A DNA stretch of 64,000 nucleotides, taken from positions 656,999-720,998 of the forward strand of contig NZ_BMQY01000003.1 of the NCBI RefSeq assembly GCF_014648355.1. The letters are read 5' to 3'. The notes under the pieces are model-generated. The model was not told where the DNA came from, searched no databases, and was given only the letters and a program-made list of their open reading frames with translations. Positions 1,427 to 59,048 of the stretch are shown here, in pieces. Within the stretch, counting starts at the first letter, position 1; each line of letters begins with the position of its first letter. The position numbers were made by a program, and so were the translations under genes. The DNA comes from Couchioplanes azureus (lineage in GTDB: Bacteria > Actinomycetota > Actinomycetes > Mycobacteriales > Micromonosporaceae).

Positions 1427-3811
1427 GTGCTGACGAGTACGCCCGTCCTCAAGCGGCGCCGGTGGTCCGGCGTCGCCATCGTGGTCGTGGTCGCGCTCAC
1501 CGGGATCGCCGCGTCCTGGGGTGCCGCGCAGGGCGCCCGCGACACCGAGCAGCGCTACGCCGCGCAGCTCATGGACCGTTACACCAGCGACCTCAACCGG
1601 GCCATCTCCAACGAGATCCAGCGGTACGGCGACACCCTCCTCGACGTGGCGATCGCGCTCGGCGCCCAGAACGACCTCAACGCCGAGCACTTCACCTGGA
1701 TCACCTCCAAGGTCAGCACCCGCCGCCTGCCCGGCGCGACGTCGCTCTCCTTCGTGGTCTCCTCCCAGGACACCGGCGTCGCGATGCTGGAGCAGTACTG
1801 GCGCGGCAAGGGCGCGCCGGACCTGCGGTTCAAGCCGGTGGGCACCGGCATCGAGCACACCTTCGTCGTGTTCACCAAGTCGTTCGACGGCCGGCCGGTC
1901 TCCACGGGCTGGGACCTCAACAGCACCCCCGAGGCCGACGAGACCCTGGACGAGGCCCGGATCGTCGGCGGGCTCGCGGTCAGCCGGGCGTACGTGTTCC
2001 CGGCCGACCGCGGCCTGCCCCTCGCCGAGCAGCAGCAGTCGTTCACGCTCGCGGTGCCGGTGTACTTCAAGAACGGCCCCATCCGCGGGTGGCTGAGCCT
2101 GGGCGTGCACGGCGGCGACCTGCTCAACGAGACGCTGCGGGCACAGGCCCACGGCGCGGTGACCGCCGAGCTGGCCGACCCGGCCAGCACGAGCGACCGG
2201 GTGGTCGCCCAGGCGACCGCCGAGCTGGCGCGTCCCTCGGCGACCCTGAGCCGCACCGCCTTCATCCCCGCCGGCCTGCGGATGTGGAAGCTGGAGGTGC
2301 ACCCGACCGAGCGGCTGCTCGCGGAGACCGACCGCGGCATCGTCGGCTCGGCGTGGGCCCTCGGCCTCACCATCACCCTGCTGCTGACGGCGCTGGTCGG
2401 CATCCTGACCGGCGCCCGCAACCGGGCGATGAGCAAGGTCGACGCGGCCACCGCCGCGCTGCGCCGCGACATCGAGCGCCGCCAGCAGGTGGAGACGAAG
2501 CTGCGGCAGCGCGAGAACGAGCTGCAGCGGTTGGCGCTGCACGACCCGCTGACCGGGCTCGCCAACCGGGCCGGCCTCGAGGACCGGCTCGCCCGCACGG
2601 TGGGCGACCGCGAGGACGTGGCGCTGCTGCTCATCGACCTCGACGACTTCAAGCTGGTCAACGACGCGTACGGGCACGCCGCCGGCGACACGATGCTGAC
2701 CGGCTTCGCCGAGATCCTGAGCTCCTCGGTGCGCGCCGAGGACGTGGCGGCGCGCATCGGCGGCGACGAGTTCGTCGTCCTGCTCACCGACGTGACCGAC
2801 GCCGACTCGGCGCTGGCCGCCGCCCACCGCATCCTCGGCGCCGCGGCGGCCTCGCCGGTGTGCTTCGGCAACGACACCGTGCCGGTGCGCGCCAGCGTCG
2901 GCGTGGCCACGACCCGCGCCGGCGACACGCCGAAGGACCTGCTGCGCCGCGCGGACATTGCGATGTACCAGGCCAAGAACCTGGGTACGCACGGCGTCCA
3001 GCTCTACGACCCGTCGATGACCGACGGCCGCGCGGCCGACGCCCAGCTCGGCGAGGACCTCACCGGCGCCCTGGAGCGCGGCGAGCTGACCGTGCTCTAC
3101 CAGCCGCTCGTGGACCTCTCCGACAGCCGCCCGGTCGGCGTCGAGGCGCTGGTCCGCTGGCAGCACCCGGAGCTCGGGGTGGTGTCCCCGGCCCGGTTCA
3201 TCCCGATCGCCGAGCGCAACGGCACGATCAACACCCTGGGGCTCTGGGTCCTGCGGGAGGCGTGCGCCCAGGTCGTCTCGTGGGGCGGCGACACGTACGT
3301 CAGCGTCAACCTGTCCCCCCGCCAGCTGCACGAACCGACGCTGGTCCACGACGTGCTCGCCGTGCTGCAGCTCACCGGCCTGGAACCGGGCCGCCTGGTC
3401 CTCGAGATCACCGAGTCGGCGCTGGTCGACGACGTCGCGGGCATCACCATGCTGGCCGAGTTCCGCGCCCACGGCATCCGGGTCGCCATCGACGACTTCG
3501 GCACGGGCTATTCCTCGCTGCACTACCTCACCCGGCTGCCGGTCGACATCCTCAAGATCGACCGCAGCTTCGTGGCCGAGCTCAACGGCACGCCGGAGGG
3601 CGCCGGCATCACCGAGGCGATCCTGCGGCTGAGCCACGCGCTGCACCTGACCACGGTGGCCGAGGGCATCGAGACCACCGAGCAGGCCACCGAGCTGCAG
3701 CTGCTGGGCTGCGGCATCGGCCAGGGCTACCTGTTCGCCGAGCCGCTGCCGCCCGCGCAGATGCTCAGCCTGCTCGCGCGCTCTTCGCAGCCGCCTTCAT
3801 CTCTTTCTTGA
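1427..3811 (+). CDS. CHASE-GGDEF-EAL c-di-GMP turnover protein
   Basis: A 794-residue membrane sensor with both c-di-GMP domains. One N-terminal helix (about residues 13-33) and another near 305-325 bracket a periplasmic CHASE-like sensor domain. A short coiled coil leads to a GGDEF domain (about 375-525) and an EAL domain (about 545-785). The diguanylate cyclase site is canonical (GGDEF at 445-449). An RAED inhibitory I-site lies exactly five residues upstream. The phosphodiesterase site also looks intact (EALVRW at 573; DDFGTGYSSL later). Both activities are therefore possible, and the net direction cannot be predicted. Its 3' end overlaps the converging HhH-GPD gene by 47 bp. The GTG start has only a weak ribosome site. 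Confidence 0.92.
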   Translation: MLTSTPVLKRRRWSGVAIVVVVALTGIAASWGAAQGARDTEQRYAAQLMDRYTSDLNRAISNEIQRYGDTLLDVAIALGAQNDLNAEHFTWITSKVSTRRLPGATSLSFVVSSQDTGVAMLEQYWRGKGAPDLRFKPVGTGIEHTFVVFTKSFDGRPVSTGWDLNSTPEADETLDEARIVGGLAVSRAYVFPADRGLPLAEQQQSFTLAVPVYFKNGPIRGWLSLGVHGGDLLNETLRAQAHGAVTAELADPASTSDRVVAQATAELARPSATLSRTAFIPAGLRMWKLEVHPTERLLAETDRGIVGSAWALGLTITLLLTALVGILTGARNRAMSKVDAATAALRRDIERRQQVETKLRQRENELQRLALHDPLTGLANRAGLEDRLARTVGDREDVALLLIDLDDFKLVNDAYGHAAGDTMLTGFAEILSSSVRAEDVAARIGGDEFVVLLTDVTDADSALAAAHRILGAAAASPVCFGNDTVPVRASVGVATTRAGDTPKDLLRRADIAMYQAKNLGTHGVQLYDPSMTDGRAADAQLGEDLTGALERGELTVLYQPLVDLSDSRPVGVEALVRWQHPELGVVSPARFIPIAERNGTINTLGLWVLREACAQVVSWGGDTYVSVNLSPRQLHEPTLVHDVLAVLQLTGLEPGRLVLEITESALVDDVAGITMLAEFRAHGIRVAIDDFGTGYSSLHYLTRLPVDILKIDRSFVAELNGTPEGAGITEAILRLSHALHLTTVAEGIETTEQATELQLLGCGIGQGYLFAEPLPPAQMLSLLARSSQPPSSLS

Positions 3812-4343
3812 AGGCTCGCACCCGCGCCAGCGACTCCCCGTCGACGATGTCGGCCACCGAGCGGTACGAGCCCTCCTCGCCGTACGCGCCGGCAGCCTCC
3901 CGCCAGCCGGGCGGCCGGACGCCGTACTGCTTGCCGAGCAACGCGACGAAGATCTGCGACTTCTGCTTGCCGAAGCCGGGCAGCGCCGCGACCCGCCTGA
4001 GCAGCTCCTTGCCGTCGACGGCGTCCCGCCACAGGTGGGCCGCGTCGCCGTCGTAGCCGTCGACGAGCGCCCGGCAGACCTCCTGCACCCGTGCGGCCAT
4101 CGCCTTGGGAAACCGGTGCAGCGCCGGCGGCTCGGCGAAGATCGCGATCAGCGCATCGGGGTCGAAGGCGGCCAGCTCCTCGGCGGTGGGCGCGTGGCCG
4201 AGCCGCTGCGCCAGCACGTACGGCGAGCTGAACGCCTTCTCCAACGGGATCTGCTGGTCCAGCACCATGCCGACGAGCAGCGCCAGCGGGTCGGTGGAGA
4301 GCAGCTTGTTGGCCTCGGCGTCGATGGGCAGCGAGAGCGTCAT
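3765..4343 (-). CDS. HhH-GPD-type base-excision DNA repair family protein
   Basis: A 192-residue protein starting at ATG 4343 (MTLSLPIDAEA); an ATG three codons upstream (4352) is an alternative. It contains a helix-hairpin-helix (LPGFGKQKSQIFVALLGK) and the family's conserved GMVLDQQIPLEKAF segment. It belongs to the actinobacterial HhH-GPD family usually annotated as an uncharacterised base-excision repair protein (TIGR03252-like). Glycosylase activity is inferred from the fold only, because I cannot confirm the catalytic Lys/Asp arrangement. A longer open frame runs upstream to 5099, but it is antisense to the GntR gene and is rejected as coding. Confidence 0.85.
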   Translation of the reverse strand: MTLSLPIDAEANKLLSTDPLALLVGMVLDQQIPLEKAFSSPYVLAQRLGHAPTAEELAAFDPDALIAIFAEPPALHRFPKAMAARVQEVCRALVDGYDGDAAHLWRDAVDGKELLRRVAALPGFGKQKSQIFVALLGKQYGVRPPGWREAAGAYGEEGSYRSVADIVDGESLARVRAFKKEMKAAAKSARAG

Positions 4344-4389
4344 GGGCCACATCCTATGGACAACCCCCGGGCCGGTGAGGCAACCTCTA

Positions 4390-4405
4390 GGTTGTCTAGA
4401 TGACC
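4390..4405. promoter_or_regulatory. Palindromic operator candidate upstream of the GntR-deoC operon
   Basis: GGTTGTCTAGATGACC follows the pattern GGT-N2-TCTAGA-N2-ACC, an interrupted palindrome centred on CTAG. HutC-subfamily GntR regulators such as DasR bind similar cores (TGGTCTAGACCA). It lies 10 bp upstream of the GntR start codon, overlapping the likely promoter/leader, so autorepression and co-control of deoC is the simplest reading. GGAGG at 4407-4411 is the ribosome site for the following ATG. Confidence 0.6.
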
Positions 4406-4415
4406 TGGAGGACCA

Positions 4416-5144
4416 ATGGCGAAGACGCCGCTCTATGTGCGGATCGAGCGGGCCCTGCGCACCCGTCTCGCCGGGGCCAGTCCAGGCGACCTGGTGCCGG
4501 CCGAGTCCGCGCTCGCCGAGGAGTTCGGCGTGGCGCGGATGACCGTGCGCGCCGCGCTCAACGCGCTGGAGGCCGACGGTCTCATCGAGCGGGTGCAGGG
4601 CCGGGGCACCTTCGTGCGCCAGCGTCCCGCTCCACGCGCCGCCGCCACCCTGATGAGCTTCCACGACCAGGTGCTCAGCTGGGGCCGGCGCCCGTCGTCG
4701 CGGGTGGTCGAGGCCGAGCTGCGGCCGGCCCGCGCCGAGGAGGCCGCGGCGCTGCAGCTCACCGCCGCCGCGCCGCGGGTGATCTCGATCGTCCGGGTCC
4801 GGCTCGCCGACGACGTCCCGATGGCGATCGAGTACGCGAGCTTCCCGCCGCACCTGACCGCCTTGCTCGACGTCGACCTCGAGACCGGCTCGCTGCACCG
4901 GGCCCTGCACGAGTTCGGGCTGCGGCCCACCCTGGGCTCGTCCACGCTCAGCGCCCAGCTCGCCGGCCCCGACGGCGGCCACCTCCAGGTCGCCGCCACC
5001 GAGCCCCTGCTGGTCGAGAGCCGCGTCATCGTCGACCAGTTCTCGCAGCCCCTCGAACACTCGGTGAGCCGCTACGTCGGCAGCCGCTACTCGCTGCACG
5101 TCACGTTCGACGTGCAGCCGCCCCGGACAGGAGACACCCGATGA
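4416..5144 (+). CDS. GntR/HutC-family transcriptional regulator
   Basis: A 242-residue regulator. It has an N-terminal winged helix (about residues 5-70; PAESALAEEFGVARMTVRAAL contains the recognition helix) and a C-terminal UTRA ligand-binding domain (about 90-235) of chorismate-lyase fold. The ATG start has a good TGGAGGA site. The stop overlaps the deoC start (ATGA), so the two genes are translationally coupled. Linkage to deoC suggests that the effector is a deoxynucleoside-derived metabolite, but this is inference. The palindrome at 4390-4405 is the likely operator. Confidence 0.88.
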   Translation: MAKTPLYVRIERALRTRLAGASPGDLVPAESALAEEFGVARMTVRAALNALEADGLIERVQGRGTFVRQRPAPRAAATLMSFHDQVLSWGRRPSSRVVEAELRPARAEEAAALQLTAAAPRVISIVRVRLADDVPMAIEYASFPPHLTALLDVDLETGSLHRALHEFGLRPTLGSSTLSAQLAGPDGGHLQVAATEPLLVESRVIVDQFSQPLEHSVSRYVGSRYSLHVTFDVQPPRTGDTR

Positions 5145-5845
5145 ACGTCGCCAAGATGATCGACCACGCGCTGCTGCGTCCCGAGCTGACCCCCGAGGAC
5201 GTCCGGCAGGGCTGCGCCGTCGCCGCCCGCTACGGCACCGCCTCGGTGTGCGTGCGCCCCGCCGACGTGGCGCTGGCCAAGGCCGCGCTGCACGGCACCG
5301 GCGTGCTGGTCGGCACGGTGGTGGGCTTCCCGCACGGCAGCACCCCCACCGCGGTGAAGGTGGCGGAGACCCACGCCGTGGTCGAGGCGGGCGCGGACGA
5401 GATCGACGTGGTGCTCGCCATCGGCATGCTGCGCGGCGGCGAGCACGCCGCCGTGCGCGCCGACCTCGCCGCGGTGGTGGCCGCCGCCCAGGGCCGGGTG
5501 GTCAAGGTGATCCTCGAGACGGCGTACCTGACCGACGAGGAGAAGGTGCACGCCTGCCGCCTCGCCGAGAGCGCGGGCGCCCACTTCGTGAAGACCAGCA
5601 CCGGCTTCGCGCCGGGCGGCGCGACCCTCGACGACATCCGGTTGATGCGCGCGGCCGTGTCACCCGCCGTCGAGGTCAAGGCCTCGGGCGGCGTCCGTAC
5701 GCTGGAAGCCCTGCTCGCCCTCTACGAGGCGGGCGCGACCCGCTTCGGCACCACCGCGACCGAGGCCATCGTCGCCGAGCAGGAGGCCCTCGCCCGCGGC
5801 GAACGCCCGGCCGTCGCCGCCCCGGCCACCGCCGGCGACTACTGA
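5141..5845 (+). CDS. deoC: Deoxyribose-phosphate aldolase
   Basis: A 234-residue class I aldolase that cleaves 2-deoxyribose-5-phosphate to glyceraldehyde-3-phosphate and acetaldehyde in deoxynucleoside salvage. The Schiff-base lysine is K151 in VKTSTGF. The second catalytic lysine is K180 in VKASGGVRT, and the proton-relay Asp is D89 in EIDVVLAIG. The length matches the family. The ATG overlaps the GntR stop by 4 bp. The 3' end overlaps the convergent NACHT gene by 7 bp. Confidence 0.96.
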   Translation: MNVAKMIDHALLRPELTPEDVRQGCAVAARYGTASVCVRPADVALAKAALHGTGVLVGTVVGFPHGSTPTAVKVAETHAVVEAGADEIDVVLAIGMLRGGEHAAVRADLAAVVAAAQGRVVKVILETAYLTDEEKVHACRLAESAGAHFVKTSTGFAPGGATLDDIRLMRAAVSPAVEVKASGGVRTLEALLALYEAGATRFGTTATEAIVAEQEALARGERPAVAAPATAGDY

Positions 5846-8800
5846 TCCACGGCCTGCGCCACGCGGGCGGCCAGCGCGCGGTCCGCCGCGAGCACCTGCC
5901 GGGCCTGCGGGTCGGCCAGCGCCACGGACACGCCGCGCACCAGGTACGCCCGCAGGCGCGAGGCCGTCCGCGGGGGCAGGCAGCCCCGCAGCTCGTGCAG
6001 GGCCGCGAGGACGCGGAGCTGGTCCACCGCGGTCAGCTGGAGCCGCAGCAGGTTCATCTCGTCGACGAGCTCGGGCACGCCCTCCCCGCCGGGTATCCGG
6101 GCGGCGGCGAGGCACTCCAGGACCTCCGGCACCACCCGCCGGAAGTAGCTGCTGCGCACGTACGCCCCGAGCCAGCGCAGCACGTCGGCGACCGGAAGCC
6201 GGGCGGCGTCGCGGGTCAGCATGCCGAGCAGCAGCCGGGCGGCCCGGCCGAAGTGCAGCTGCGAGGCCGCCTGCTCCGGTCCCCCGCTGAGCAGGGCGTC
6301 CACCGCGCGGGCGTAGCCGGCGGCGAGGGTGGCGGCGTCGGCGCTCGCCGCGCCGACCCAGACCCGCACCAGCGCGTGCGCCACGGACTCGGCGTCCTCC
6401 TTGCCCATGGCCACCACGGTGGTGACCGCGTCCGGCATCCACCGGGCGAGCGGTTCGGCGGCCCACCGGACCAGGTCGGCCGCGGTGTCGGCGGTCAGAT
6501 GCAGGCGGTTGGCGACCCGGTCGTACGGCACCGTGCCCCAGGTGCCGGGCGTGCCGGCCGTCGCGCCGGCGGTGCTCCAGCGCAGGTCCACCGCCGGGAA
6601 GCGGCGCTCCGCGGTGGGGTCCAGGACGAGGTCGCGGCGGTCGCCGTCCCAGCCGCGGATGACCGTCAGCGTGGCGACGAGCTCGTTCCAGATGCCGGAC
6701 GGGACCGCCGCCTCCCACTGCAGGGCGGCGCCGCGCAGCCACGCCGCCGGGTCGCCCGCGTACAGGAAGAGCTCGGAGGCGCGCAGCGGCTCACCGCAGG
6801 CGAGCGCGAGCAGGGTGAGGTTCAGCGAGTACGTCGCCATCAGGTGGTCCACCCGCTTGTCGACCGGGCGGTATTCCTGGGCCGGATGCGCCGGCCGGGT
6901 CAGCGCGACGCGCAGCGTGTCGACCAGCCACCCGCGGATCATGCCCCGGTCCTCGCCGGCGAGCATCGACGTGACGAACGGCAGCACCGTCGCGCGGGCG
7001 GCCAGCGGCGCGTATCCCAGCAGCGTCCGCACCAGGCCCTCGTCCCGCGGACCGCCCAGGGGCAGCCGCGCCACGGCCGCGCGCGCCGCCGTGTCCCGCA
7101 GCGCCCGGACGGTGAGCCGGGCCACCAGGAACTCCCCGAAGGTGGCGTGCAGGAACTCGTACGTCTGCAGCGTGCGATCGTCCTGCGTGGCCCGGGACCG
7201 CTGGATGAAGAAGAAGCGCCCGATCAGCTCCTCCCCCGCGGTCAGCGGCCGGTGGAACGCCTCGGTGCCGGGCCGCACCGCCGCGAGGCCGAGGGCGGCC
7301 AGGTCGGCGTCGAGCTCCCGCTCGGTGACCGACTGGCGCAGCCGGTTGAACATCGCGAACGCGACCACCGACAGGCGGACCAGCTCCTCCTCGACCAGGC
7401 CCGGCACCGCCGCCTCGGGCTCGCGCGGGTGCAGCCGGCGCACCTCGCGCTCGGCGAAGCTGCTGAGTAACCGCTCGTACAGCTCCGCGGTCTCGAGCGA
7501 GGCCTCGCTCTGCAGCGCGTGCGTGGCGGCGTCGTAGAGCGCGAGCATCAGCAACAGCAACGGCTGCTCGCAGAAGTCCGGGAAGCGCGCGAGCACCTCG
7601 GCCGGCAGCGGCCGGTGCTCCGGGCGCCCGGCGTTGGCCCGGTTCCAGGTCGCCAGCCAGGCGGCGACCTGGGCCTCGTCGAAACCCTCCAGGCGCACGG
7701 CGAGCGTGCCGCCCGGCAGCCGGGCCCGGTCGGCCACCGCCAGGCGGCTGGTGACCACGACCGCCACCGGCCGGCCGAGGACGGCCTCGCGTTGCTGGAA
7801 CGCCGCCACCCGCTGCAGGTAGTCGGACTGGTGGATGCCGGTCGCCTGGATCAGCTCGTCGAACCCGTCGAGCAGGATCACCGGCAGCGCGCCGGCCGCG
7901 GCGCGGGTCAGCTCGGGCCAGGAGACGCTCTCCCCCACGGCCGCGCGTACGGCCAGCTCGACCTGGTCCTGGACGGCCGCCTCGGCCGGCACGTCGCGCA
8001 GCACCACCCGCACGACGAGGAAGTCCGCGGCGGGCAGCCGCGCCGCCAGCACCCGGGTCAGCGCCGACTTGCCCGCCCCCGGCTGGCCGAGCAGCACCAG
8101 CGGCGCCTCGAAGGCCTGCGGCGTGGTCAGATGGCCGGCGAGGAAGGCGGCGAGGTCCGCACGGGTCTCCCCGGTCCACCACGACTCCTCCGCCAGGCTG
8201 GAGTTCGGCGACGCGAGCCGGGCCCGGAACCGCGGATCGAGGTACGCCTCCCCCAGCGACGGGACCCGGACCTCCCCGGTGTCGCCGCGCAGCACGGGCA
8301 GCTCCAGGTCGGCGCGGTACGCCGCCGCGAGCGCGGCCCGCCAGCCCTCGGCCCGACGTCCGGAACCCGTCCGTTCCAGCAGCTCGCGCAGCTCGCCCAG
8401 GCTGTGGCCGATGGCCTGGCGCTCGGCGCGCGCCACCCAGAAACCGAATTCCGGCACGTCCACGGCCAGGCGCAGGCTGATCTCCTCGTAGCGGCGGACC
8501 GCCAGGCCGGGAAGCCGGGCGCCGATCAGGTCGCCGGCGGCGCGCCGCTCCCGCTCGCTCGCCCGCTCCCAGACCGCCAGGCCCTCGAGGAAGCCGCGCA
8601 GCCGGGCGCTCGCGGCCGCGTAGAACTCGGCCAGCTCCGCGGCCAGGCCCCGGTGCGGCCGCGCCGCCGACGGGACCGGGAGCTCCGCGGTGACCAGCGA
8701 CTCCAGCCAGTCCCCGTCGACCCTGGTGCCGGTGGAGAGCAGGATCTGCTCGTCGCGGGTCAGGGCCGCCGCGCCGATCCCGGCCTGCGCCACCACCTGG

Positions 8801-9090
8801 TCGAACGCCTCGAAGTAGGCGGCCAGCACCAGCACGCCGTGTGCGGCCTGGAGGCGGCTGCTGCGGTCGTGGCGGGGGAGTCCCCGTACGGAATCATGCA
8901 GCTTGCCGGCCACGACGTGGCCGAGGCGGACGATCTCGGTCTTGGCGTCGAAGAGCGACAGAGCCGCCGCCGAGCCGCCCGCGGTGGCCACCGCCAGCAC
9001 CCCGCCGAGGAGGTCGTCGACCGCCTTGGCGGCGGGCCCCGCCCCGTCGAGGATCTTGACGGCATCGACGTAACGCAATCCGCGGGCCAT
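5839..9090 (-). CDS. Large stand-alone NACHT-domain NTPase (bacterial NLR-like; candidate anti-phage protein)
   Basis: A 1083-residue protein with ATG at 9090 ([14 protein letters not shown]). A longer GTG-started version to 9156 would overlap dtd and is not preferred. Residues 1-300 are helical and resemble the actinobacterial NACHT N-terminal helical domains (NNH7-like: [30 protein letters not shown]). The NACHT core has Walker A GQPGAGKS (335-342), Walker [11 protein letters not shown] (404-413) and a sensor-like VVVTSRL (444-450). The NACHT-associated helical region ends in [12 protein letters not shown] (644-655). The remaining ~420 residues are helix-rich, with no WD40, TPR or LRR pattern visible to me. 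Related bacterial NACHT proteins defend against phage. No separate nuclease, TIR or protease effector is visible, so any effector must be within the unknown N- or C-terminal regions. It sits alone between deoC and dtd, with a 56-bp divergent promoter region shared with dtd. Confidence 0.88.
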
Positions 9091-9146
9091 CCGTCCATGA
9101 TGTCCGGTACGCGGATCGCCGCCAAGAGCCGGTACGCTCGGCGCCG

Positions 9147-9569
9147 ATGAGGGCACTGATACAGACCGTCAGCCGGGCGAGCGTGACCGTGGCCGACGAG
9201 GTCGTCGGGAAGATCGAGGACGGCCTGCTCGTCCTGCTCGGCGTCACGCACACCGACACCGCGGAGACCGCCGCGACCATGGCCCGCAAGGTCCACGAGC
9301 TGCGCATCCTCGACGACGAGCGCTCGGCGGCCGAGGCCGGCGCGCCGCTGCTGGTGGTCAGCCAGTTCACCCTCTACGGCGACGCGCGCAAGGGCCGGCG
9401 GCCGAGCTGGTCGGCGGCCTCACCTGCGGAGGCCGCCGAGCCGCTGGTCACCGCCGTCGTCGAGGCGCTGCGCGAGCGCGGGGCTACCGTCGAGACGGGC
9501 CGGTTCCGGGCCCACATGCTCGTCGAGAGCGTGAACGTGGGCCCGCGAACCGTCCTGCTGGAGATCTAG
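9147..9569 (+). CDS. dtd: D-aminoacyl-tRNA deacylase
   Basis: A 140-residue cytoplasmic deacylase that removes D-amino acids (and misattached Gly) from tRNA. It begins [13 protein letters not shown] and carries the SQFTLYGD active-site motif (residues 72-79). The C-terminal Gly-Pro motif reads NVGPRT rather than the usual NxGPVT, a conservative variation that keeps the cis-Pro. Its TAG stop shares bases with the opposite-strand TAG of the Spo0M gene in a CTAG tetranucleotide. Confidence 0.95.
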
Positions 9570-10351
9570 AAAAGACCGCGGCGCTGGGCGGACTGCTGCA
9601 GCCAGCCGTTGAGCTGCGCGGTCCAGTCGACCTGGTCGACCGTGTGGTAGTCGACGTCGAAGCGGCCGAACGCGTCGTGGCCCTCGGTGAACAGCCCGCC
9701 CCGCTTGTCGATCTCCAGCACCACCTGGAGCTGGTGCGGCGTCGGGATGAACGTGACCTCGAGCTGGTTGATGCCGTGCGCGAACTGCGCCGGCGGGTAG
9801 AACTCGATCTCCTGGTAGAACGGCAGCGTCTGCTGCACGCCGTAGACCCGACCGCTCTCCACGTCGGCCCGGCTGAAGCGGAAGCCCAGCCGCAGGAAGG
9901 CGTCGAGGATCCGCTCCTGGGCCGGCAGCGGGTGCACGGCCACGGCGTCCAGGTCGCCCTTGTCGACCGCCCGGGCCACCTCGAGCTCCGTACGCAGACC
10001 CATGGTCATGCCGTGCAGGTGCTGCCCGTACACCTCCGTGATCGGGGTCTCCCACGGCACGTCGAAGCGGAACGGGATGTCGTAGCGCGCGCCCGCGTCG
10101 AGCTTGAAGGAGCCGGTGAGACGCTGGCGGTGGAACTCCTGATCGGTGTTGTACTCGCTGTCGCCGCTCTCCACCTCGACCCGGGTCATGAGTCCGACAG
10201 CCACGTACTCGATGTCGACGGCGTGGTCGCCGCCCATCACGTGCACCTGGCCCTCGAGGTAGCCGCCGGGGCGGCAGTTGGGGTTGGCGAGCACCGTCTC
10301 CACGGACGGCCCGCCCACGCCCATCGCCTGCATCAACTTTTTGAAAACCAC
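9566..10351 (-). CDS. Spo0M-like sporulation-control/arrestin-fold protein (copy 1)
   Basis: A 261-residue Spo0M-family protein with a GTG start preceded by GAGGAGG. The family starts MVFKK(L/V)..[10 protein letters not shown] and has an arrestin-like beta sandwich in the N-terminal half; both features are recognisable here. Spo0M affects sporulation and cell division in Bacillus; in actinomycetes its role is not established. A paralogue with the same opening and the same VHPLPAQE and LPFYQEI motifs lies at 60075-60887. Between this gene and sigB is a 257-bp divergent promoter region in which I recognise no specific operator. Confidence 0.88.
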
Positions 10352-10608
10352 CGAACCTCCTCGTACGACCCGTGCCCTCCTGGCAGATTACCGGTCCTCG
10401 ACCACGCATTCGGAATTGAGCCGCGTTCGGTAAATGTCACACCAATCCGGGCGCCTGTCGGCTTGCCGACCTCATGGTTCTCCCCGATTCATGCCACCCG
10501 CACGCTTGCCTTACCTCGGCTTAACGCCCCCCGGTCCACACTTCTGATCACCGGCACGAATGCGGCTGGGAACGCACGACATCGGTTGAGCGGGGAGGGG
10601 ACTGAAAG

Positions 10609-49298: not shown

Positions 49299-50330
49299 TC
49301 ACTCCGACTCGGCGGTGCGGCGACGGCGCGTCACCAGGATGAGGCCGGCACCACCCGCGGCGATCGCGGCACCGACGCCCGCGATGCTGACGATGTTGCC
49401 ACCGGTGAGCGCAAGGGCGCCGGAACCGCCCTGACTGGCGCTGGCGTTGCGGAAACCGCCAGTACCGGTGCCGTTACCGCTGGCGCCACCGGAGCCGTTG
49501 CCCGAGCCGCCGTCGTTGCCGGATCCGGCGCCCTCACCGGAGTCCGACGGAGTGGCCGGATCGATCGGGTTGGTGGGGACACCGCCGCCGCCTCCAGGCG
49601 TCTCGCCGCCGCCACCGCCCGGAGTGCCGGTCCCACCGCCCGGGGTGCCCGTGCCGCCGCCAGGCGTGCCGGCGCCGCCGCCGGGAGTGCCCGTGCCACC
49701 GCCAGGCGTGCCGGCGCCGCCGCCGGGGGTATCCGTGCCACCGCCAGGAGTGCCGGTCCCACCGCCAGGAGTGCCGGTCCCACCGCCAGGAGTGCCGGTC
49801 CCACCGCCGGGCGTGCCCGTGCCACCGCCCGGGGTGCCCGTGCCACCGCCAGGCGTGTCCGTGCCACCGCCGGGAGTGCCGGTCCCACCGCCGGGCGTGC
49901 CCGTGCCACCGCCCGGGGTGCCCGTGCCACCGCCCGGGGTGCCCGTGCCACCGCCAGGAGTACCCGTGCCGTCGCCCGGGGTGTCCGGCCCGTCGCCGCC
50001 GCCAGGTGTGTCCGTTCCTGTGCCCTCACCGGGGGCGCCCGGAGTGTCCGGGGTTTCGCCACCGGGGTTGCCCGGGTTGCCGGCCCCGCTGCCGCCCGGG
50101 GTTTCCGGGTCCTCGGCGGCGGGAGCCTCGGCGGCCTGGGAGGTGGTCGTGTCGTCATCGGCCGCGGCGGCAGGCTCGGCGAGCGCCACCACGGGAGCGG
50201 CGTTGAGCTCCGTGGCTGCAGCAGCAGAGGTGGCGCCCGCAAGACCGGCGACACCCACGGCACCGACGACGACGCCGAGCTTTACCGCTGCACGCACGCC
50301 ACGACGGCGCGCGAGCTGATTGGTTCGCAT
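49299..50330 (-). CDS. LAXTG-type (sortase E) surface protein with a heptapeptide-repeat stalk
   Basis: A 343-residue protein from ATG 50330, with GGGGAGG 5 bp upstream. It has a basic N-terminus and signal peptide (about 1-40, ending ATSAAAA), an Ala/Asp/Glu-rich region, then about 19 copies of a TPGGGTG heptad, a Ser/Gly/Asn-rich segment, and a sorting signal: LALTG (306-310), hydrophobic helix, RRRR tail. LAXTG is the class E sortase motif of high-GC actinomycetes, so it is predicted to be covalently attached to peptidoglycan. There is no catalytic domain; it looks like a wall-spanning stalk or coat protein. No sortase gene is in the window. Confidence 0.85.
   Translation of the reverse strand: MRTNQLARRRGVRAAVKLGVVVGAVGVAGLAGATSAAAATELNAAPVVALAEPAAAADDDTTTSQAAEAPAAEDPETPGGSGAGNPGNPGGETPDTPGAPGEGTGTDTPGGGDGPDTPGDGTGTPGGGTGTPGGGTGTPGGGTGTPGGGTGTPGGGTDTPGGGTGTPGGGTGTPGGGTGTPGGGTGTPGGGTGTPGGGTDTPGGGAGTPGGGTGTPGGGAGTPGGGTGTPGGGTGTPGGGGGETPGGGGGVPTNPIDPATPSDSGEGAGSGNDGGSGNGSGGASGNGTGTGGFRNASASQGGSGALALTGGNIVSIAGVGAAIAAGGAGLILVTRRRRTAESE
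49605..49995. repeat. 21-bp coding tandem repeat (heptapeptide stalk)
   Basis: About 19 tandem 21-bp units (variants of CCCGTGCCACCGCCAGGCGT plus G) inside the LAXTG gene, encoding TPGGGTG/TPGGGTD/TPGGGAG. High unit identity suggests recent slippage or recombination, so copy number probably varies between strains. Confidence 0.88.
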
Positions 50331-50671
50331 GTTCCTCCCCGTAATTCCTACTGATGTGGTCTTCATTGGACGATGGCGTGCGTCAGTCCGGCGCGAAGAT
50401 TACCGGCAACCACCGGATCACTTCCATTCACGGCGAGCAATACCGGTCAAGCCGGACACTCCCGAGAACGCCGATCCACAATTCACACGGAACGAACGCA
50501 CTCGACCACCCACAGCCAGCGCAAACGAGGCCGTCACCGGGGCGCACTCCATCACCGCCGCGCCGGCACACACCAAGGCCGGGCCTGCGCCTCGTCTGGC
50601 GGCAACGGCACCCGTCGCCAGAGCCGTTCACCGTCCCACAGTCGAGCGCCAACCGGCCGACGCAGGCGCGC
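50331..50671. other. Gap upstream of the LAXTG gene
   Basis: 341 bp that must hold the LAXTG gene promoter and leader. It is less GC-rich than its surroundings, as expected of regulatory DNA. I looked for a c-di-AMP (ydaO-type) riboswitch and did not recognise one. Confidence 0.4.
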
Positions 50672-53276: not shown

Positions 53277-53477
53277 TCAGTGCAGGCGCGCAGGCACCCG
53301 ATCGGAGTACGCGGCCACCACAGCGCGCCAGATCGTAGCCGTGTCGACACCGCCCGCTATGGCCTCGTCGATCGTCCGTCCACCGAGGTCCGCGAAGGCG
53401 TGATCGGCGGCGAGACTGCGCGCGTAGGCGGGCCCGAAGGCCTGCTCGAGGCGCTGCCAGAAATCCGTCAACCGCAC
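53277..53477 (-). CDS. DUF3046 family protein
   Basis: A 66-residue protein (GTG 53477, VRLTDFWQRLEQAFG). The opening MRLTDFW and the FADLGGRTIDEAI segment are diagnostic of DUF3046, a small actinobacterial family next to recA (Rv2738c in mycobacteria). Its function is unknown. It ends 40 bp from the recA SOS box. Confidence 0.85.
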   Translation of the reverse strand: MRLTDFWQRLEQAFGPAYARSLAADHAFADLGGRTIDEAIAGGVDTATIWRAVVAAYSDRVPARLH

Positions 53478-53592
53478 GGGAGAAGCGTACTCGCGCCGCG
53501 GGAAGGACCGGAGACGTCGCCCGGGAAGCCGCCTGCGAGACATGGGTCACTGCCCGCTCCCGGCCACCCGGGTCCGGCACCACAGCCGAGCC

Positions 53593-53972
53593 TCAGGCCA
53601 GCGCCGTCGCCGCCACCTTGAGGTCGTCGACGAGGCTCCGGTACGCGGCACCCCGGTCGTCGGCCCGCAGTACGGCCGAGGGATGGATGGTCGCGAGCGC
53701 CTGGATCTCCTCGACCGGGAGGCCCTCGGGATGCTGCGCGGACGCCGGCCACGGCATGAGCTGGCCCCGCGACCGGGTGACCCGGAACGCCGGGCCGAGC
53801 AGGGCCTTGGCCGCCGCGGCGCCCAGCACGACCACGAGCCCCGGCTTGAGCAGGGCGAATTCCGCGCCGAGCCAGGGACGGCACCCGGTGATGTGGGCGG
53901 GCCCCGGACTCTGGTGGATGCGCCGCTTGCCGTGCAGTTCGAAGCGGAGGTGCTTGACCGCATACTTCTCAC
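53593..53972 (-). pseudogene. C-terminal remnant of a udgX copy
   Basis: Reading the minus strand, [20 protein letters not shown] and everything down to the stop align with residues ~99-220 of the intact UdgX next door, at roughly 80% identity by eye, including the KRRIH motif. An in-frame TGA lies a few codons upstream of the homology start, and the N-terminal half (Fe-S cysteines, GEQPGD motif) is missing. The remnant has the usual high-GC codon choice of the chromosome. Confidence 0.8.
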
Positions 53973-54009
53973 GTTGTCATGGCGGTTTACCGAGGTCAGG
54001 GGACTCCCC

Positions 54010-54672
54010 TCAGGCAACTACCGTCGCCACGACTCGGAGATCTTCCACCAAGCTCTGATACGCGTTGTCTCGATCGTCGGCCCGCAGCACGGCCGAGGGG
54101 TGGATGGTGGCAAGCGCTTGAGTTTTCGTGGTCGGGAAGTCTTCGGGGTGCTGAGCTGATGCCGGCCATGGCATGAGCTGGCCGCGAGACCGGGTGACCC
54201 GGAACGAGGGACCGAACAATGCCTTGGCGGCGGTAGCGCCGAGGGCCACCAGAACTTGCGGCTCCAACAGCGCGAGTTCCGCGACCAGCCAGGGCCGACA
54301 GGCCGTGATGTGCGCGGGGCCGGGGCTCTGGTGGATGCGCCGCTTGCCTCGCAACTCAAAGCGGAAGTGCTTCACAGTATTGGACAAGTACACGGAGGCC
54401 GGATCGATCCCCGCATCGTCGACCGCCTCGCGCAGTAGTCGCCCGGCTGGACCGACGAACGGGAGTCCCTGCTTGTCCTCGACGTCGCCGGGTTGTTCAC
54501 CCAGAAGAACGACCTTCGCGTGTGGGGCTCCTCGCCCGAACACCGTTTGGGTTGCATCCTCGTACAGTTCGCACCCGCGACAGCCAACCGCTGCCGTCTT
54601 CAGCTCGTCCAGGCTGTGAGCGTTGGACGGGACGAACTCCTGTGCTCCTGGTGCCTTCTCAGTCGATCCCAT
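54010..54672 (-). CDS. udgX: UdgX-type uracil-DNA glycosylase (covalent uracil-DNA binding family)
   Basis: A 220-residue family 4-like uracil-DNA glycosylase. Motif A is [20 protein letters not shown] (58-77), and the UdgX-specific loop is KRRIHQSPG with H114, the position of the His that forms a covalent bond to DNA in the mycobacterial enzyme. Motif B is HPS (191-193). Fe-S ligands C31, C34 and C125 are visible; the fourth family 4 cysteine position is H102 (VKH). Codon use (TTG, TTT, ACT, CAA) is clearly less GC-biased than in neighbours, suggesting transfer. It lies between N- and C-terminal remnants of another copy. Confidence 0.9.
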
Positions 54673-54708
54673 GTACCTCTTCTACCCCGCCCACGGCTCT
54701 ACGCTCAC

Positions 54709-54999
54709 CGTGCATCCGGCGACATCAAGGCCGGCACCCTGACGACTGTCACGATCTCGGTTGGTGGCCCTACAGGGGTAGGTCCGCTCTGTGCCAACTG
54801 CCAGAAGCCGCTCGAGGACATCTTGGCGCTGGCAACTGGCCCTGAGGGTGCGGAGGACGTGAAGCCGAAGCCACCGGCACGCCGTTCGGGGCCGAAGGTG
54901 CCAAAGCCGAGCATGGCGGGTGAACGTGTCCTGCTTGCTTCGTCTTCCTCACACGGCTCTGACGCTCGCCGCGAACTCGGGAACTTCGGACGCGAATGA
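54709..54999 (+). other. Possible small gene or gene remnant, unknown
   Basis: An open frame of about 96 codons ends at 54999. Its middle part (DIKAGTLTTVTISVGG...PLCANCQKPLEDILALA) looks protein-like, with a CxxC pair. No ATG/GTG start with a ribosome site is in frame after 54672; the ATG at 54671 is in another frame and stops after 23 codons, so a frameshift is possible. I do not recognise a family. Confidence 0.25.
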
Positions 55000-55319
55000 T
55001 GGACGGGCACCACGCAGAGATCGTGTCAGGAACTTTCAGGAGGGCGGAAGTCCCCTTCCACGACGGATGTTCCCATTACCCTTCTACCTTGGGGATCGGA
55101 ATACACGAAAGACCAGTTGCCGCGAGGCGAGATGACGGTCTTCAGGGTGACCGGTCCCCTCATGAATCAGAGATCGTCCAGCGGAACCCGGCGCTAGACC
55201 CGAACCGATTCGTGCTCGCCGGAGCCCGCCGCGAGATCAGAACTACCGCGTTCGGAAAGTCCTGGCCCTTCCTCGGTCATCGGTCGAGCGGTGTTGTTAA
55301 AGCCCACGCCGTCTTCGGA

Positions 55320-55454
55320 CACCGACCGTGCGAGCCGTTCTGGTAGAGCTCGCAGCCCATCACGGTGGCCTGCGGCGGCCTTGAGCTCGTCGAGTTCGTG
55401 CGCGCGCGGCGGTACGAAATGCTGTGCCCCGATCGGCGCTGCCGTCCTCGGCAT
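55320..55454 (-). pseudogene. N-terminal remnant of a udgX copy
   Basis: From ATG 55454, the translation MPRTAAPIGAQHFVPPRAH and ELDELKAAA aligns with the first 28 residues of UdgX ([20 protein letters not shown]). After a frame slip, GCELYQNG continues the [10 protein letters not shown] region in another frame. Homology ends near 55320. It is on the same strand as the intact gene and the C-terminal remnant. Confidence 0.7.
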
Positions 55455-55532
55455 TCCACCGTTCTACGCGTTCGCGTGCCGTCCACGCCCGGCGGTATCC
55501 CCTGAACGAGGTGGGCGCCGGACGAGCCGCGA

Positions 55533-56879
55533 TCATCGGCTCACGACGCTCACGCCGGGCGGATGGGCGGCAGCCGCCACGACGTCGGCGAGCGGCTCGA
55601 TCGCCTCGTCGTCGAGCGGACTGACGGTGATCCGTACGCCGGGAGGCGCGTCCATGCGGAACAGCGACCCGGGCGCCACCGCGTACCCGGCGTCTCGCAG
55701 CGCGGTGATCAGCCGGGTCTCGTCGGGCGTGCGTACCCAGAGATTGATGCCGGTGGCTCCGTAGGCCTTGACCCCCCGGGAGGTCAGCGCCTGCCGCAAT
55801 GCGTCGCGGCGACGGTCGTAGCTCCGGCCCGCCGCCGCGATCTGGGCAGCGACGGCCTCGTCGCGCCAGATCCGCAGCAGCAGACGCTGCAGCAGCGTGG
55901 AAACCCAGCCGGTGCCGATCCGCATGCGGCCGGCCACCCGCGCGATGGTCGCCTCGTCGCCTGCCATCACGGCGATCCGGAGATCGGGCCCGAACGGCTT
56001 GGACGCCGACCGGACGAACGCCCAGGAGGCGGTGGCACCGCTCAGGCAGTGCAACGGCACGCCGGACAACTCGGCGGCGTGATCGTCCTCGATGAGCAGC
56101 ACTTCGGGGCGGGAGGACAACACCTCACGCAGGGCGGCCGCACGCTCGGCGGTGACCGCGGCGCCGGTCGGGTTCTGGGCCCGGGTGGTGACGACGACCG
56201 CGCGCGCCCCGGCGGCGACCGCGCCCAGCAACCGGTCGGGAAGCGGACCTTCGTCGTCCATCGGGACCGGCACGGGCGTCAGGCCGAGCGCGGCGAGCAG
56301 ATCGAGCAGGTTGGCCCAGCCGGGGTCCTCCACGGCCACCGCGTCACCGGGGCGCAGATGGGTCGTGAGCAGGCGTTCGATGGCGTCGAGGGTGCCGTTG
56401 GTGACGGTGATCGCCGCGCCCGCCACCGGCACGCCGTCGGCCTCGAAACGCGGACCGGCCGCGTCGACGAGCTCGGGCATCGCGGCGGCGGCCGCATAAC
56501 CCCCGGGGGCGCCGACCTCATCGGACACCGCGCGCAGGTGCGGACCGAGCGCGGGCAGCAGCCGGACGTCCGGATCTCCCGACGACAGGTCCAGGGCGCC
56601 GGCGGGCACGGGCAGCCGCAGAGCCGCACGCGCACCGCCGATCGGCGGACGCGACCGGATGCGCGTGCCGCGCCGTCCGGAGGTCTCCACGATGCCGCGT
56701 TGGCGCAGGTCGGCATACGCCTTCGACACCGTGGCGGGGCTGACGTGCAGCTCGTCGGCAAGGATCCGGATCGGCGGCAACGCCTCACCCCAGACCCAGT
56801 CGCCCCGGAGAACGCCGGCCTCGATGCTCCCGGAAATCGCTGCGGCGGTCGAGCCGGTCACCTGGTATTGTTCTGGCAC
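55533..56879 (-). CDS. MocR-family regulator (GntR winged helix + aminotransferase-like domain)
   Basis: A 448-residue protein. It has an N-terminal GntR winged helix (about 10-75; LADELHVSPATVSKAYADLRQ) joined to a fold-type I aminotransferase domain. The PLP lysine is in SASKPFGPDLR, with upstream NPTGAA and DDHAAEL motifs. MocR proteins use PLP as effector, e.g. PdxR controlling vitamin B6 synthesis. GTG start. It is divergent from the PNPOx-GNAT fusion, with an 18-bp palindrome between them, so local control of that gene is likely. Confidence 0.9.
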   Translation of the reverse strand: MPEQYQVTGSTAAAISGSIEAGVLRGDWVWGEALPPIRILADELHVSPATVSKAYADLRQRGIVETSGRRGTRIRSRPPIGGARAALRLPVPAGALDLSSGDPDVRLLPALGPHLRAVSDEVGAPGGYAAAAAMPELVDAAGPRFEADGVPVAGAAITVTNGTLDAIERLLTTHLRPGDAVAVEDPGWANLLDLLAALGLTPVPVPMDDEGPLPDRLLGAVAAGARAVVVTTRAQNPTGAAVTAERAAALREVLSSRPEVLLIEDDHAAELSGVPLHCLSGATASWAFVRSASKPFGPDLRIAVMAGDEATIARVAGRMRIGTGWVSTLLQRLLLRIWRDEAVAAQIAAAGRSYDRRRDALRQALTSRGVKAYGATGINLWVRTPDETRLITALRDAGYAVAPGSLFRMDAPPGVRITVSPLDDEAIEPLADVVAAAAHPPGVSVVSR

Positions 56880-56924: not shown

Positions 56925-58166
56925 GTGACCGACCTCTACCAGCTCACCGCCCGCACGACCGCGACTCGCAACCGCGGCCGCATGCGCTACGAGCACGACT
57001 CGGCACACGCGATCCTCGACGAGGCATACGACTGTGCGGTGGCGTTCGTGGTCGACGGGGAGCCGCGTGTGCTGCCCACCATGCACGTCCGTGTCGGCAA
57101 CACGCTCTACCTGCACGCATCGACGGGAGGCCGGCTGGGCCTGACGGCACGCGCCGACGGCGTGCGGGTGTGCGTCTCGGTGACCTTGCTGGACGGGCTG
57201 GTCTACGCGCGCTCGCAGTTCCACCACAGTGCCAACTACCGGTCTCTGGTGGCGCACGGGGTCGCCCGGCCGGTCAGCGACGAGAGCGAGAAGAAGGCCG
57301 CCATGTCGGCCCTGGTGGAGAAGCTGGGAGCGGGCCGGACGGCCGAAAGCCGACCACCGACGACCCGGGAACTGGCGACCACCGTCGTTCTCTCACTGCC
57401 GTTGACAGAGGTTTCCGTACGGCTACGGCAAGGCGGAGTGGTCGACGACTCCGAAGACCTACCGCTGCCGCACTGGGCGGGAGTGATCCCGTTGCAGCGA
57501 GTCGCGGGCCTGCCACAGCCGGACGCGGGCGTGACGTCGGCGATCCCGGCCTACCTTCCTGGCGCGCCGCTCTCACCATGGGCGACACCCGTGCCGATGC
57601 GCGGAACGCACGTCTCCCTGGAGCCGATCTCACCGTCACACGTGGACGGCCTGATGGCGGCGCTCGCGGACGACGAGGTCTGGCAGTTCCTCCCGACGCC
57701 GAGGCCGGGCACCCGCGAGGAGATGGCCGAACACGTCGCGCTCGCCACCCGCGACCAGTGGTCGGGCAAGCGCGTGACGTGGGCGCAATGCGATCCGGCC
57801 ACCGGCGAGGTGATGGGCATGACGAGCTACCACGACGTGGACGAGAAGGGAGGAGCCCTGGCGATCGGCCACACCATGCTCGGCCGCCGCTGGTGGCGCA
57901 CCGGCGTGAACACGGAAGCCAAACTGCTGCTGCTCGAGCGCGCGTTCGACGTGCTCGGAGCCGAGCGCGTGTTCTGGTACACCGACATCCGCAACGAACG
58001 CTCCCAGCAAGCCATCGCCCGCCTCGGAGCAAGCCGCGACGGACTGATCCGGCGGCACCGCCTGAGACCGGACGGCACCTGGCGGGACACGGTCCTGTTC
58101 GCAATGACGGTCGACGAATGGCCGGCAGCCAAGAAGCGCCTCCACGCCCGAGTGACGGCCGGTTGA
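56925..58166 (+). CDS. Pyridoxamine-phosphate-oxidase-like flavoprotein fused to a GNAT acetyltransferase
   Basis: A 413-residue two-domain protein, GTG 56925 with AAGGAGG 4 bp upstream. Residues 1-205 resemble the PNPOx-like/Pyridox_ox_2 (NimA-type) flavin-binding family (RMRYEHDSAHAILDEA, HASTGGRLGL, SQFHHSANYRS). Residues ~225-405 are a RimJ/RimL-like GNAT domain (VSLEPISPSHVDGLMAAL, ERVFWYTDIRNERSQQAI). This fusion architecture is known in actinobacteria but uncharacterised. The first domain probably binds FMN or a related cofactor; the acetyl acceptor is unknown. It is likely controlled by the divergent MocR. Confidence 0.88.
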   Translation: MTDLYQLTARTTATRNRGRMRYEHDSAHAILDEAYDCAVAFVVDGEPRVLPTMHVRVGNTLYLHASTGGRLGLTARADGVRVCVSVTLLDGLVYARSQFHHSANYRSLVAHGVARPVSDESEKKAAMSALVEKLGAGRTAESRPPTTRELATTVVLSLPLTEVSVRLRQGGVVDDSEDLPLPHWAGVIPLQRVAGLPQPDAGVTSAIPAYLPGAPLSPWATPVPMRGTHVSLEPISPSHVDGLMAALADDEVWQFLPTPRPGTREEMAEHVALATRDQWSGKRVTWAQCDPATGEVMGMTSYHDVDEKGGALAIGHTMLGRRWWRTGVNTEAKLLLLERAFDVLGAERVFWYTDIRNERSQQAIARLGASRDGLIRRHRLRPDGTWRDTVLFAMTVDEWPAAKKRLHARVTAG

Positions 58167-58189
58167 CCGGTGACCCGCCACGTCGAACG

Positions 58190-58640
58190 GGCGAGGGTCT
58201 CCCCAGCGCCCACGTCGACCCGACGAGTTGTCTTCAACGCCCACGTCCACCGGGCAAGGGTCTTCCCGGCGCCCACGTCCACCGGGCAAGGGCCTCCCCG
58301 GCGCCCACGTCCACCGGGCAAGGGCCTCCCCGGCGCCCACCTCGACCGGGCAAGGGCCTCCCCGGCGCCCACCTCGACCGGGCGAGGCTGCCCCGGCGCC
58401 CACCTCGACCGGAGGAGGTGTCGCCAACGCCCACTTCGACGGGGTGAGGTCGGCCAGGTGCCGATGCCGCCCGGGTGGAATCGGCCGAACGTCCACGTCG
58501 ACCGGCGAGACCAGCCAGGCACCCACATCCACCGGGTGAGGTCCACCCGGCGTCGGCGTCGACCGGCGAGACCAGCCAGGCACCCATGTCCACCAGGTGA
58601 GCTCCACCCGGCGTCGGGCGCCAACTGGGTGAGGCCAGCT
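58190..58640. repeat. About 32-bp imperfect minisatellite, roughly a dozen units
   Basis: Units of 31-33 bp (GGCGCCCAC(G/C)TC(C/G)ACCGGGC plus AAGGGCCTCCCC) repeat from about 58200 to 58620, with near-identical copies at 58267, 58299, 58331 and 58363, then diverging. The period is not a multiple of three, and all frames are open only because of composition. It occupies half of the 882-bp gap 58167-59048; the rest carries looser GTGAGGTCGGCCGGGC-like copies and a run of ten Gs near 58911-58921. Confidence 0.88.
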
Positions 58641-59048
58641 GAGCACCCGCGTAGCCCGGTGAAGTCGGTCGGGCGCGGGCATCGCTCGGATGAGGTCAGC
58701 CGGGCGTCGGCGCCACCTGAGGTGAAGTGAGCCGGGCACCCGTGACGACCAGGGCTGAGCGCCCGCGACGAGCAGGTGAGGTCGGCCGGGCACTCGCGCA
58801 AGCGGCTGAGGTCAGCCAGGCGGCCCCGGCAATCGGGGGGGAGGCCGTCTGGCGGGCCTCAGCGCACGACGGAGTCGACTGGGCAAGGTTTCGCGCACGG
58901 TGGGGGCGCCGGGGGGGGGGGTGCATACCGTCGATGGGTCCTTTGTCGGTCCCGGACGGCTCGGCGGATGAGGGGTGGTGGGCAAGGCCACATGTTCTTG
59001 TCCCTGCGGAGACTGCCGGACGGAGCTCGGCGAACCGAGGATAAGGCC

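Follow-up and report, generated by a model that had tools for sequence, protein, structure and literature searches.

A divergent udgX inside a decaying resident udgX of Couchioplanes azureus, most likely the relic of a GInt-like element that targets and can carry udgX

The window analysed here is a stretch of 64,000 nucleotides from Couchioplanes azureus (contig 3 of genome G000, positions 656999–720998). A udgX match was found in all 67 genomes of the genus, including that of the window, and the surroundings of the gene are well conserved. Of 29 udgX loci of the genus, 27 have a MocR-type gene upstream and 28 a DUF3046-type gene downstream, in each case at a distance of no more than 1.5 kb, and recA is nearby in 27. 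In the window, the usual upstream neighbour is the minus-strand gene at 55533–56879, which we take to encode a MocR-type regulator/aminotransferase, and the usual downstream neighbour is the minus-strand gene at 53277–53543, presumably of the DUF3046 type. The preliminary description of this DNA, made from the sequence alone, had drawn attention to the replacement of such an enzyme next to recA; placement beside recA is the normal arrangement for the genus and is not remarkable in itself.

Between these two neighbours, read along the minus strand, stand an N-terminal piece of udgX (55331–55454, with weak homology possibly extending to 55316), about 0.65 kb of foreign or unassignable DNA without recognisable genes (54673–55330), a complete udgX encoding 220 residues (54010–54672), a 48-nt tail (53962–54009), and a C-terminal piece of udgX that runs to the normal stop (53593–53961). 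The foreign DNA enclosed by the two resident pieces amounts to 1.35 kb. A mosaic of this kind, with an intact lower-GC copy between N- and C-terminal remnants of another copy, had been proposed in the preliminary description and is confirmed by alignment, profile scores and base composition. The complete gene lies exactly where it had been placed, whereas the C-terminal remnant begins at 53961 and not at about 53972.

The two pieces belong to the resident gene. The closest relative seen is a sister species (genome G008, udgX locus L010), with RecA 100% and MocR 94% identical. The N-terminal piece matches its udgX with 89.7% nucleotide identity over 126 nt, corresponding to about 42 codons and thus within the 28–45 residues initially estimated; it contains one frameshift, caused by a 1-base insertion relative to L010, and its homology fades between about 55331 and 55316. 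The C-terminal piece is 92.1% identical to L010 over 369 nt, and the homology begins exactly at GCGGTCAAGCAC, window position 53961. Its GC content at third codon positions (GC3) is 0.932, close to the genus value of 0.922 for the same region, and in the DNA tree it is sister to L010 with an SH-aLRT support of 92. Between the C-terminal piece and L010 there are 14 nonsynonymous and 13 synonymous codon differences, compared with 5 and 37 for the working pair L008–L010 (Fisher p 0.0006 for the excess), and none of 65 genus pairs at 4–12% divergence has an equally high nonsynonymous share. It also deviates at 4 of 49 columns that are invariant in the other sequences, one of the deviations replacing Arg by His at a position two residues ahead of the R-loop. 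The nonsynonymous share together with these departures from invariant columns indicates that constraint on the C-terminal piece has been lost. The two pieces represent the resident udgX in the form of a decaying pseudogene.

The complete copy presents the opposite picture. Its product scores 237.6 bits against the UdgX profile TIGR03914 (cut-off 189.95), aligns with UdgX structures along its length and, of the 82 columns that do not vary in a set of 100 other sequences (two of these being duplicates), retains 80. The translation and the alignments show motif A with Gln (GEQPG), the R-loop KRRIH with the covalent His, and motif B (HPSAVLR). A promoter-like motif, GGGGTAGAAG, as found with udgX in the genus, stands just before the ATG at 54672. 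With a GC3 of 0.746, the copy lies far below the genus mean of 0.913 (sd 0.034, lowest 0.822, 66 copies; z about -5). The compositional contrast noted at the outset therefore holds for the gene; its extension to A/T-ending codons in the flanking DNA is inapplicable, because no credible gene was found at 54673–55316. The copy is 77.7% identical to L010 over 619 nt of DNA. At the protein level, its identity reaches at most 81% with any copy of the genus, 76% with that of one family member (G094), and 74% for the best match outside the genus among matches at 1e-85 in 397 genomes of the order.

Phylogeny separates the complete copy from the resident pieces. We built a DNA tree of the C-terminal region (101 rows, two duplicate rows dropped) and a protein tree (99 rows). 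In the former, the complete copy falls within the genus clade (support 98) on an end branch of 0.27, apart from the C-terminal piece; in the latter, it joins four genus members with a support of 88. The two trees differ on its exact place, and the donor was probably a member or a near relative of the genus outside the genomes sampled. Identity to L010 stays at or below 84% in every 90-nt window (step 45) of the complete copy, which is therefore not a chimera with the resident gene. The complete copy is foreign in origin. Two models had been put forward for the mosaic, and the grouping of the C-terminal piece with the sister species supports that of a foreign udgX-bearing segment inserted into the resident gene.

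The position of the break turned out to be informative. In L010, the sequence around it reads ...ACCAAC GCGGTC AAGCAC (N-A-V-K-H). The homology of the window to the resident gene sets in with GCGGTC (53956–53961, minus strand; codons 99–100 of the resident udgX), which we propose as a 6-bp integration core, and foreign sequence, ...GAGAAGTAT, stands before it. The 48-nt tail (56% GC, minus strand), the proposed right end of an element, abuts this core directly. The preliminary description had suggested inspecting the same interval in relatives for an uninterrupted gene, and at least one full-length udgX is present in 65 of the 66 other genomes of the genus. The exception is G047, where udgX is split at codons 99/100, the same coordinate as the break in the window, by an element of 5,907 bp (5.9 kb). 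Its junctions read ...ACCAAC TCGGTG, then the element from TTCTATTGAG to CTCAATAGAA, then GTGTTC AAGCAC. This insert has inverted ends and encodes three large recombinase-type genes and one small gene, the first recombinase gene adjoining the N-terminal half of udgX. Its GinA passes the Pfam model Phage_integrase, GinC reaches E 1e-4, below the cut-off, and GinB matches no model. The G047 element has no cargo, and no udgX match beyond the two halves was found in G047 at E 0.001; carrying a udgX is therefore not universal among such elements. We call the elements described here GInt-like on the basis of the published description of GInts.

A second element sits at the same site in another genus of the family. 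Our search for udgX near 19 distinct GinA matches covered 27 loci, many of them with a flank of just about 1.5 kb, and besides G047 only G118 (locus L055) has udgX beside GinA. There, the resident gene is divided on the minus strand into an N-terminal half (10643–10353) and a C-terminal half (to 2590) by an element at 2971–10352 (7,382 bp; 7.4 kb), again at codons 99–100, with GCGGTC on each side as a clear 6-bp repeat at the element ends. The element contains three recombinase-type genes and a small fourth gene, followed by about 1.8 kb of cargo, which consists of a HAD_SAK_2 gene (RNA-repair-type HAD; 8757–9371), bounded by a short inverted repeat (GTGTTTGAGAAG / CTTCTCAAACAC), and a complete udgX (9474–10157) near the far end, codirectional with the recombinase-type genes. 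The resident halves are 80–90% identical to the uninterrupted udgX of three congeners, each of which has one complete copy, and have GC3 values of 0.96 and 0.90. The cargo udgX shares only about 56% identity with the congener genes and has a GC3 of 0.714. The contrast between cargo and resident halves in G118 thus parallels that in the window (0.746 vs 0.932). Judging from this likeness, G118 would represent the arrangement of the window before decay, with a low-GC, foreign, whole udgX at the end of an element in udgX.

The G047 and G118 elements are related to each other. Their four gin genes are 41–43% identical and stand in the same order; in G118, too, GinA passes the Phage_integrase model, while GinB and GinC match none. 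In a GinA tree of 20 rows, the two form a clade with a support of 99. No udgX was found in the flanks of the other 18 rows, and in the material examined the udgX target therefore goes with the G047/G118 clade. A third relative, in G108, calls for caution on this point; it is a partial GinA on a contig of 4.5 kb, nearest to that of G118 (55% identity over 109 residues) and too short to be included in the tree; the complete udgX of G108 lies on another contig.

The foreign DNA of the window itself yielded few traces. For the interval at 54673–55330, phages gave no match, and none appeared among the matches listed for plasmids and for 250 genomes of the family. Within it, the segment at 54673–55316 has a GC content of 62.7%. 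A peptide read from its plus strand matched nothing in plasmids, phages and 100 relatives, and one from its minus strand nothing in plasmids. Five weak genome matches of the plus-strand peptide were inspected and look like chance. Homology of this segment to mobile elements, suggested as a check at the outset, was not found, nor was any similarity to recombinases. With 16 Gin-type proteins from four elements as queries, the best E value was 0.1 in 53500–55600, and 1e-3 was reached nowhere in the window. The 48-nt tail resembles none of the known element ends and gave no blastn match in the compared loci at E 0.5. In 250 genomes, its last 20 bases recur at a single further site, which has 2 mismatches. 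Its last 16 bases are present in 13 stretches of IMG/VR, in which neither udgX nor a recombinase of this type was found at E 1e-3. Relatives of the G118 GinA were not found in the IMG/VR scan, and UdgX-bearing plasmids from Georgenia and Streptomyces showed no recombinase operon among the genes listed in the stretches viewed.

We propose that the 6-bp core of codons 99–100, within the target AAC|GCGGTC|AAGCAC that encodes the conserved N-x-V-K-H, served as the specific integration site of a GInt-like element comprising three recombinase-type genes and a fourth, small one. At its end facing the C-terminal half of the target, the element would have brought along a whole udgX, divergent and lower in GC, together with a promoter-like motif belonging to that gene. 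A later deletion might have removed the recombinase end together with resident codons of about 43–98, stranding the cargo gene. The broken resident gene would then have decayed, whereas the foreign copy, presumably expressed and active, would have taken over and remained under selection. We assign a probability of roughly 0.8 to the reading that a GInt-like element inserted carrying a foreign udgX and then lost its recombinase genes by deletion. Because the window contains no recombinase gene, we infer the element from position and analogy; the case is made by the exact break position, the side on which the cargo lies and the precedent of G118. The complete copy of the window adjoins the C-terminal half, consistent with the orientation in G047, where the first recombinase gene is next to the N-terminal half; the element in G118 lies in the gene in the orientation opposite to that which the window would require. 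The right junction of the window lies at the core and the left junction has been lost, so that a paired repeat and inverted ends cannot be seen there.

A foreign DNA fragment with a udgX could instead have entered the resident gene without any mobile element, through illegitimate or end-joining repair that replaced about 165 bp. A single event of this kind would account for both junctions and would fit the lack of recombinase genes found in the window. A metagenome-assembled genome (L054, 1803–1856) has moreover lost codons of about 41–98 of udgX in frame and without any insert, which is nearly the same stretch as is missing in the window; the loss perhaps occurred through a short repeat, or reflects an assembly error. 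Since L054 breaks at nearly the same codons without an element, short repeats may likewise cause breakage at this spot, and deletion of that kind may account for part of the picture in the window. A scan of contigs for a changed base upstream of the K-H-F motif of udgX returned one match, L054 itself, and is no count of rarity, because the pattern misfits the C-terminal half in G118 and did not recover G047. Against repair-mediated joining, the right junction coincides exactly with the integration core of the G047 and G118 elements. If breakpoints were spread evenly over the gene, simple arithmetic from the gene length gives about 1/660 for the exact base and about 1/50 for a position within 6 bp; the agreement at the right junction may be due to chance. 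Random capture would presumably rarely bring exactly one whole udgX, and the absence of any chimeric stretch in the complete copy also argues against it. We regard such joining as unlikely.

The other model raised in the preliminary description, in which udgX was duplicated in tandem and one copy was then partly deleted, has a counterpart in the genus, where G052 (L035) carries two complete tandem copies (4177–4836 and 4999–5658). It is the only such case among the 67 genomes, and its copies are sister sequences that group together with supports of 96 (DNA) and 89 (protein), as expected from duplication within a lineage and unlike the window. The direct comparison of complete copy and C-terminal piece gives 76.8% identity over 367 nt (blastn, E 1e-54), so that the two are 23% apart in nucleotides; they do not group in the trees and are not recent duplicates. 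The pieces, furthermore, flank the complete copy rather than stand beside it, and the adjoining 0.65 kb shows no similarity to udgX, making this history very improbable. Equally remote is an artefact of assembly joining two genomes. The locus lies inside an 850-kb contig, the stated completeness and contamination of the genome are 100% and 0.38%, and decay of the C-terminal piece would not be expected from a chimeric assembly of working genes. We therefore return to the reading of an inserted GInt-like element that has since been reduced.

Several known systems resemble the proposed one in part. In the Tn554 family and in RIT elements, several tyrosine recombinases act together as well. Tn554 uses a 6-nt core and inserts in the DNA-repair gene radC; in gene number and sizes, both groups differ from the elements of the G047/G118 type. 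Islands in tRNA genes regenerate their target with an end piece. The likeness to the islands treated by Islander, in the parts of that source available to us (PMC4383910), lies in an island splitting its target gene and supplying the restoring sequence, whereas the present case involves the supply of a complete, divergent copy that has a promoter-like motif of its own. The closest parallel is offered by GInts, for which the sections available to us describe four gin genes, which encode three consecutive integrases and a small HLH-type protein, 6-nt staggered cuts, high target specificity, targets such as an ABC transporter gene, ssb and a ribonucleotide reductase gene, insertion that probably does not fully inactivate the target, a cargo of 2.5–70 kb and flanking direct imperfect repeats of 10–17 nt (PMC5385486, Bardaji et al. 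2017). The G047 and G118 elements share with them three consecutive recombinase-type genes with a small fourth gene at one end and a specific site, and in G118 the cargo also lies towards the other end. The predicted 6-nt core site, with GCGGTC at both ends in G118, TCGGTG on the left and GTGTTC on the right in G047, and inverted ends, fits the 6-nt staggered cuts. They differ from GInts, as described in those sections, in sitting in the middle of udgX and breaking it, in a cargo that is below the published range (about 1.8 kb in G118) or absent (G047), and, in G118, in a cargo homologous to the target gene, for which the text examined gives no example among GInts. The word 'actinobacteria' is absent from the text of PMC5385486. 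The segment in the window has no gin genes, with no similarity to a ginABCD operon at E 1e-3, and would by that description be at most a remnant. A small search of the open-licence literature found no account of udgX as an integration site. Taken together, the loci suggest a GInt-like element that targets udgX and may carry udgX; G118 has it whole, G047 has it bare, and the window most likely retains a relic of it.

To our knowledge, the natural role of UdgX is unclear. In Mycobacterium smegmatis, His109 of the R-loop forms the covalent bond, and the H109G variant gains conventional uracil-DNA glycosylase activity, according to the portion of the source available (PMC10359453). The cargo of G118 passes the UdgX profile (223 vs 190 bits) and reads TRRIG for KRRIH; the cross-linking histidine is replaced by glycine there and is intact in the copy of the window. 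These observations allow a tentative view, which we consider possible though rather doubtful. The family might harbour a lineage of GInt-like elements that use udgX as their site and can carry a udgX of their own, so that infection swaps the suicide cross-linking enzyme of the host, perhaps for an altered version, with His109 changed to Gly, that excises without trapping. If so, the version carried by the element could excise uracil without trapping and perhaps protect the element's own uracil-containing or damaged DNA in transfer. An element that breaks a gene and also brings a substitute would provide a route by which a foreign homologue takes the place of a chromosomal repair gene, at the original locus and independently of homologous recombination, and some replacements ascribed to recombination may be relics of site-specific elements. 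Three stages can be recognised within one family, namely G047 with a bare element in its udgX, G118 with an element whose cargo includes udgX, and the window with a probable relic that leaves the swapped gene. A target-and-resupply element, once with a changed cross-linking histidine, would also offer a way to ask what is gained by the presence or loss of the cross-link.

Some further features of these loci were recorded on their own account. In L138 (G172), at about 2303–2345, udgX has an apparent frameshift near codon 112, at the R-loop, seen as tblastn pieces in different frames. Loci L062 (G024, 5740–8495) and L063 (G010, 5547–8215) contain about 2.7 kb of extra DNA in the udgX/DUF3046 and DUF3046/recA gaps, with no gin similarity at E 1e-5. 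Elsewhere in the window, the minus strand at 49299–50366 encodes a predicted surface protein with many PGGGTGT repeats, and the region at about 58150–58800 is a GC-rich repetitive stretch (repeats such as RASPAPTSTGQGPPRRP) with long overlapping open frames on both strands.
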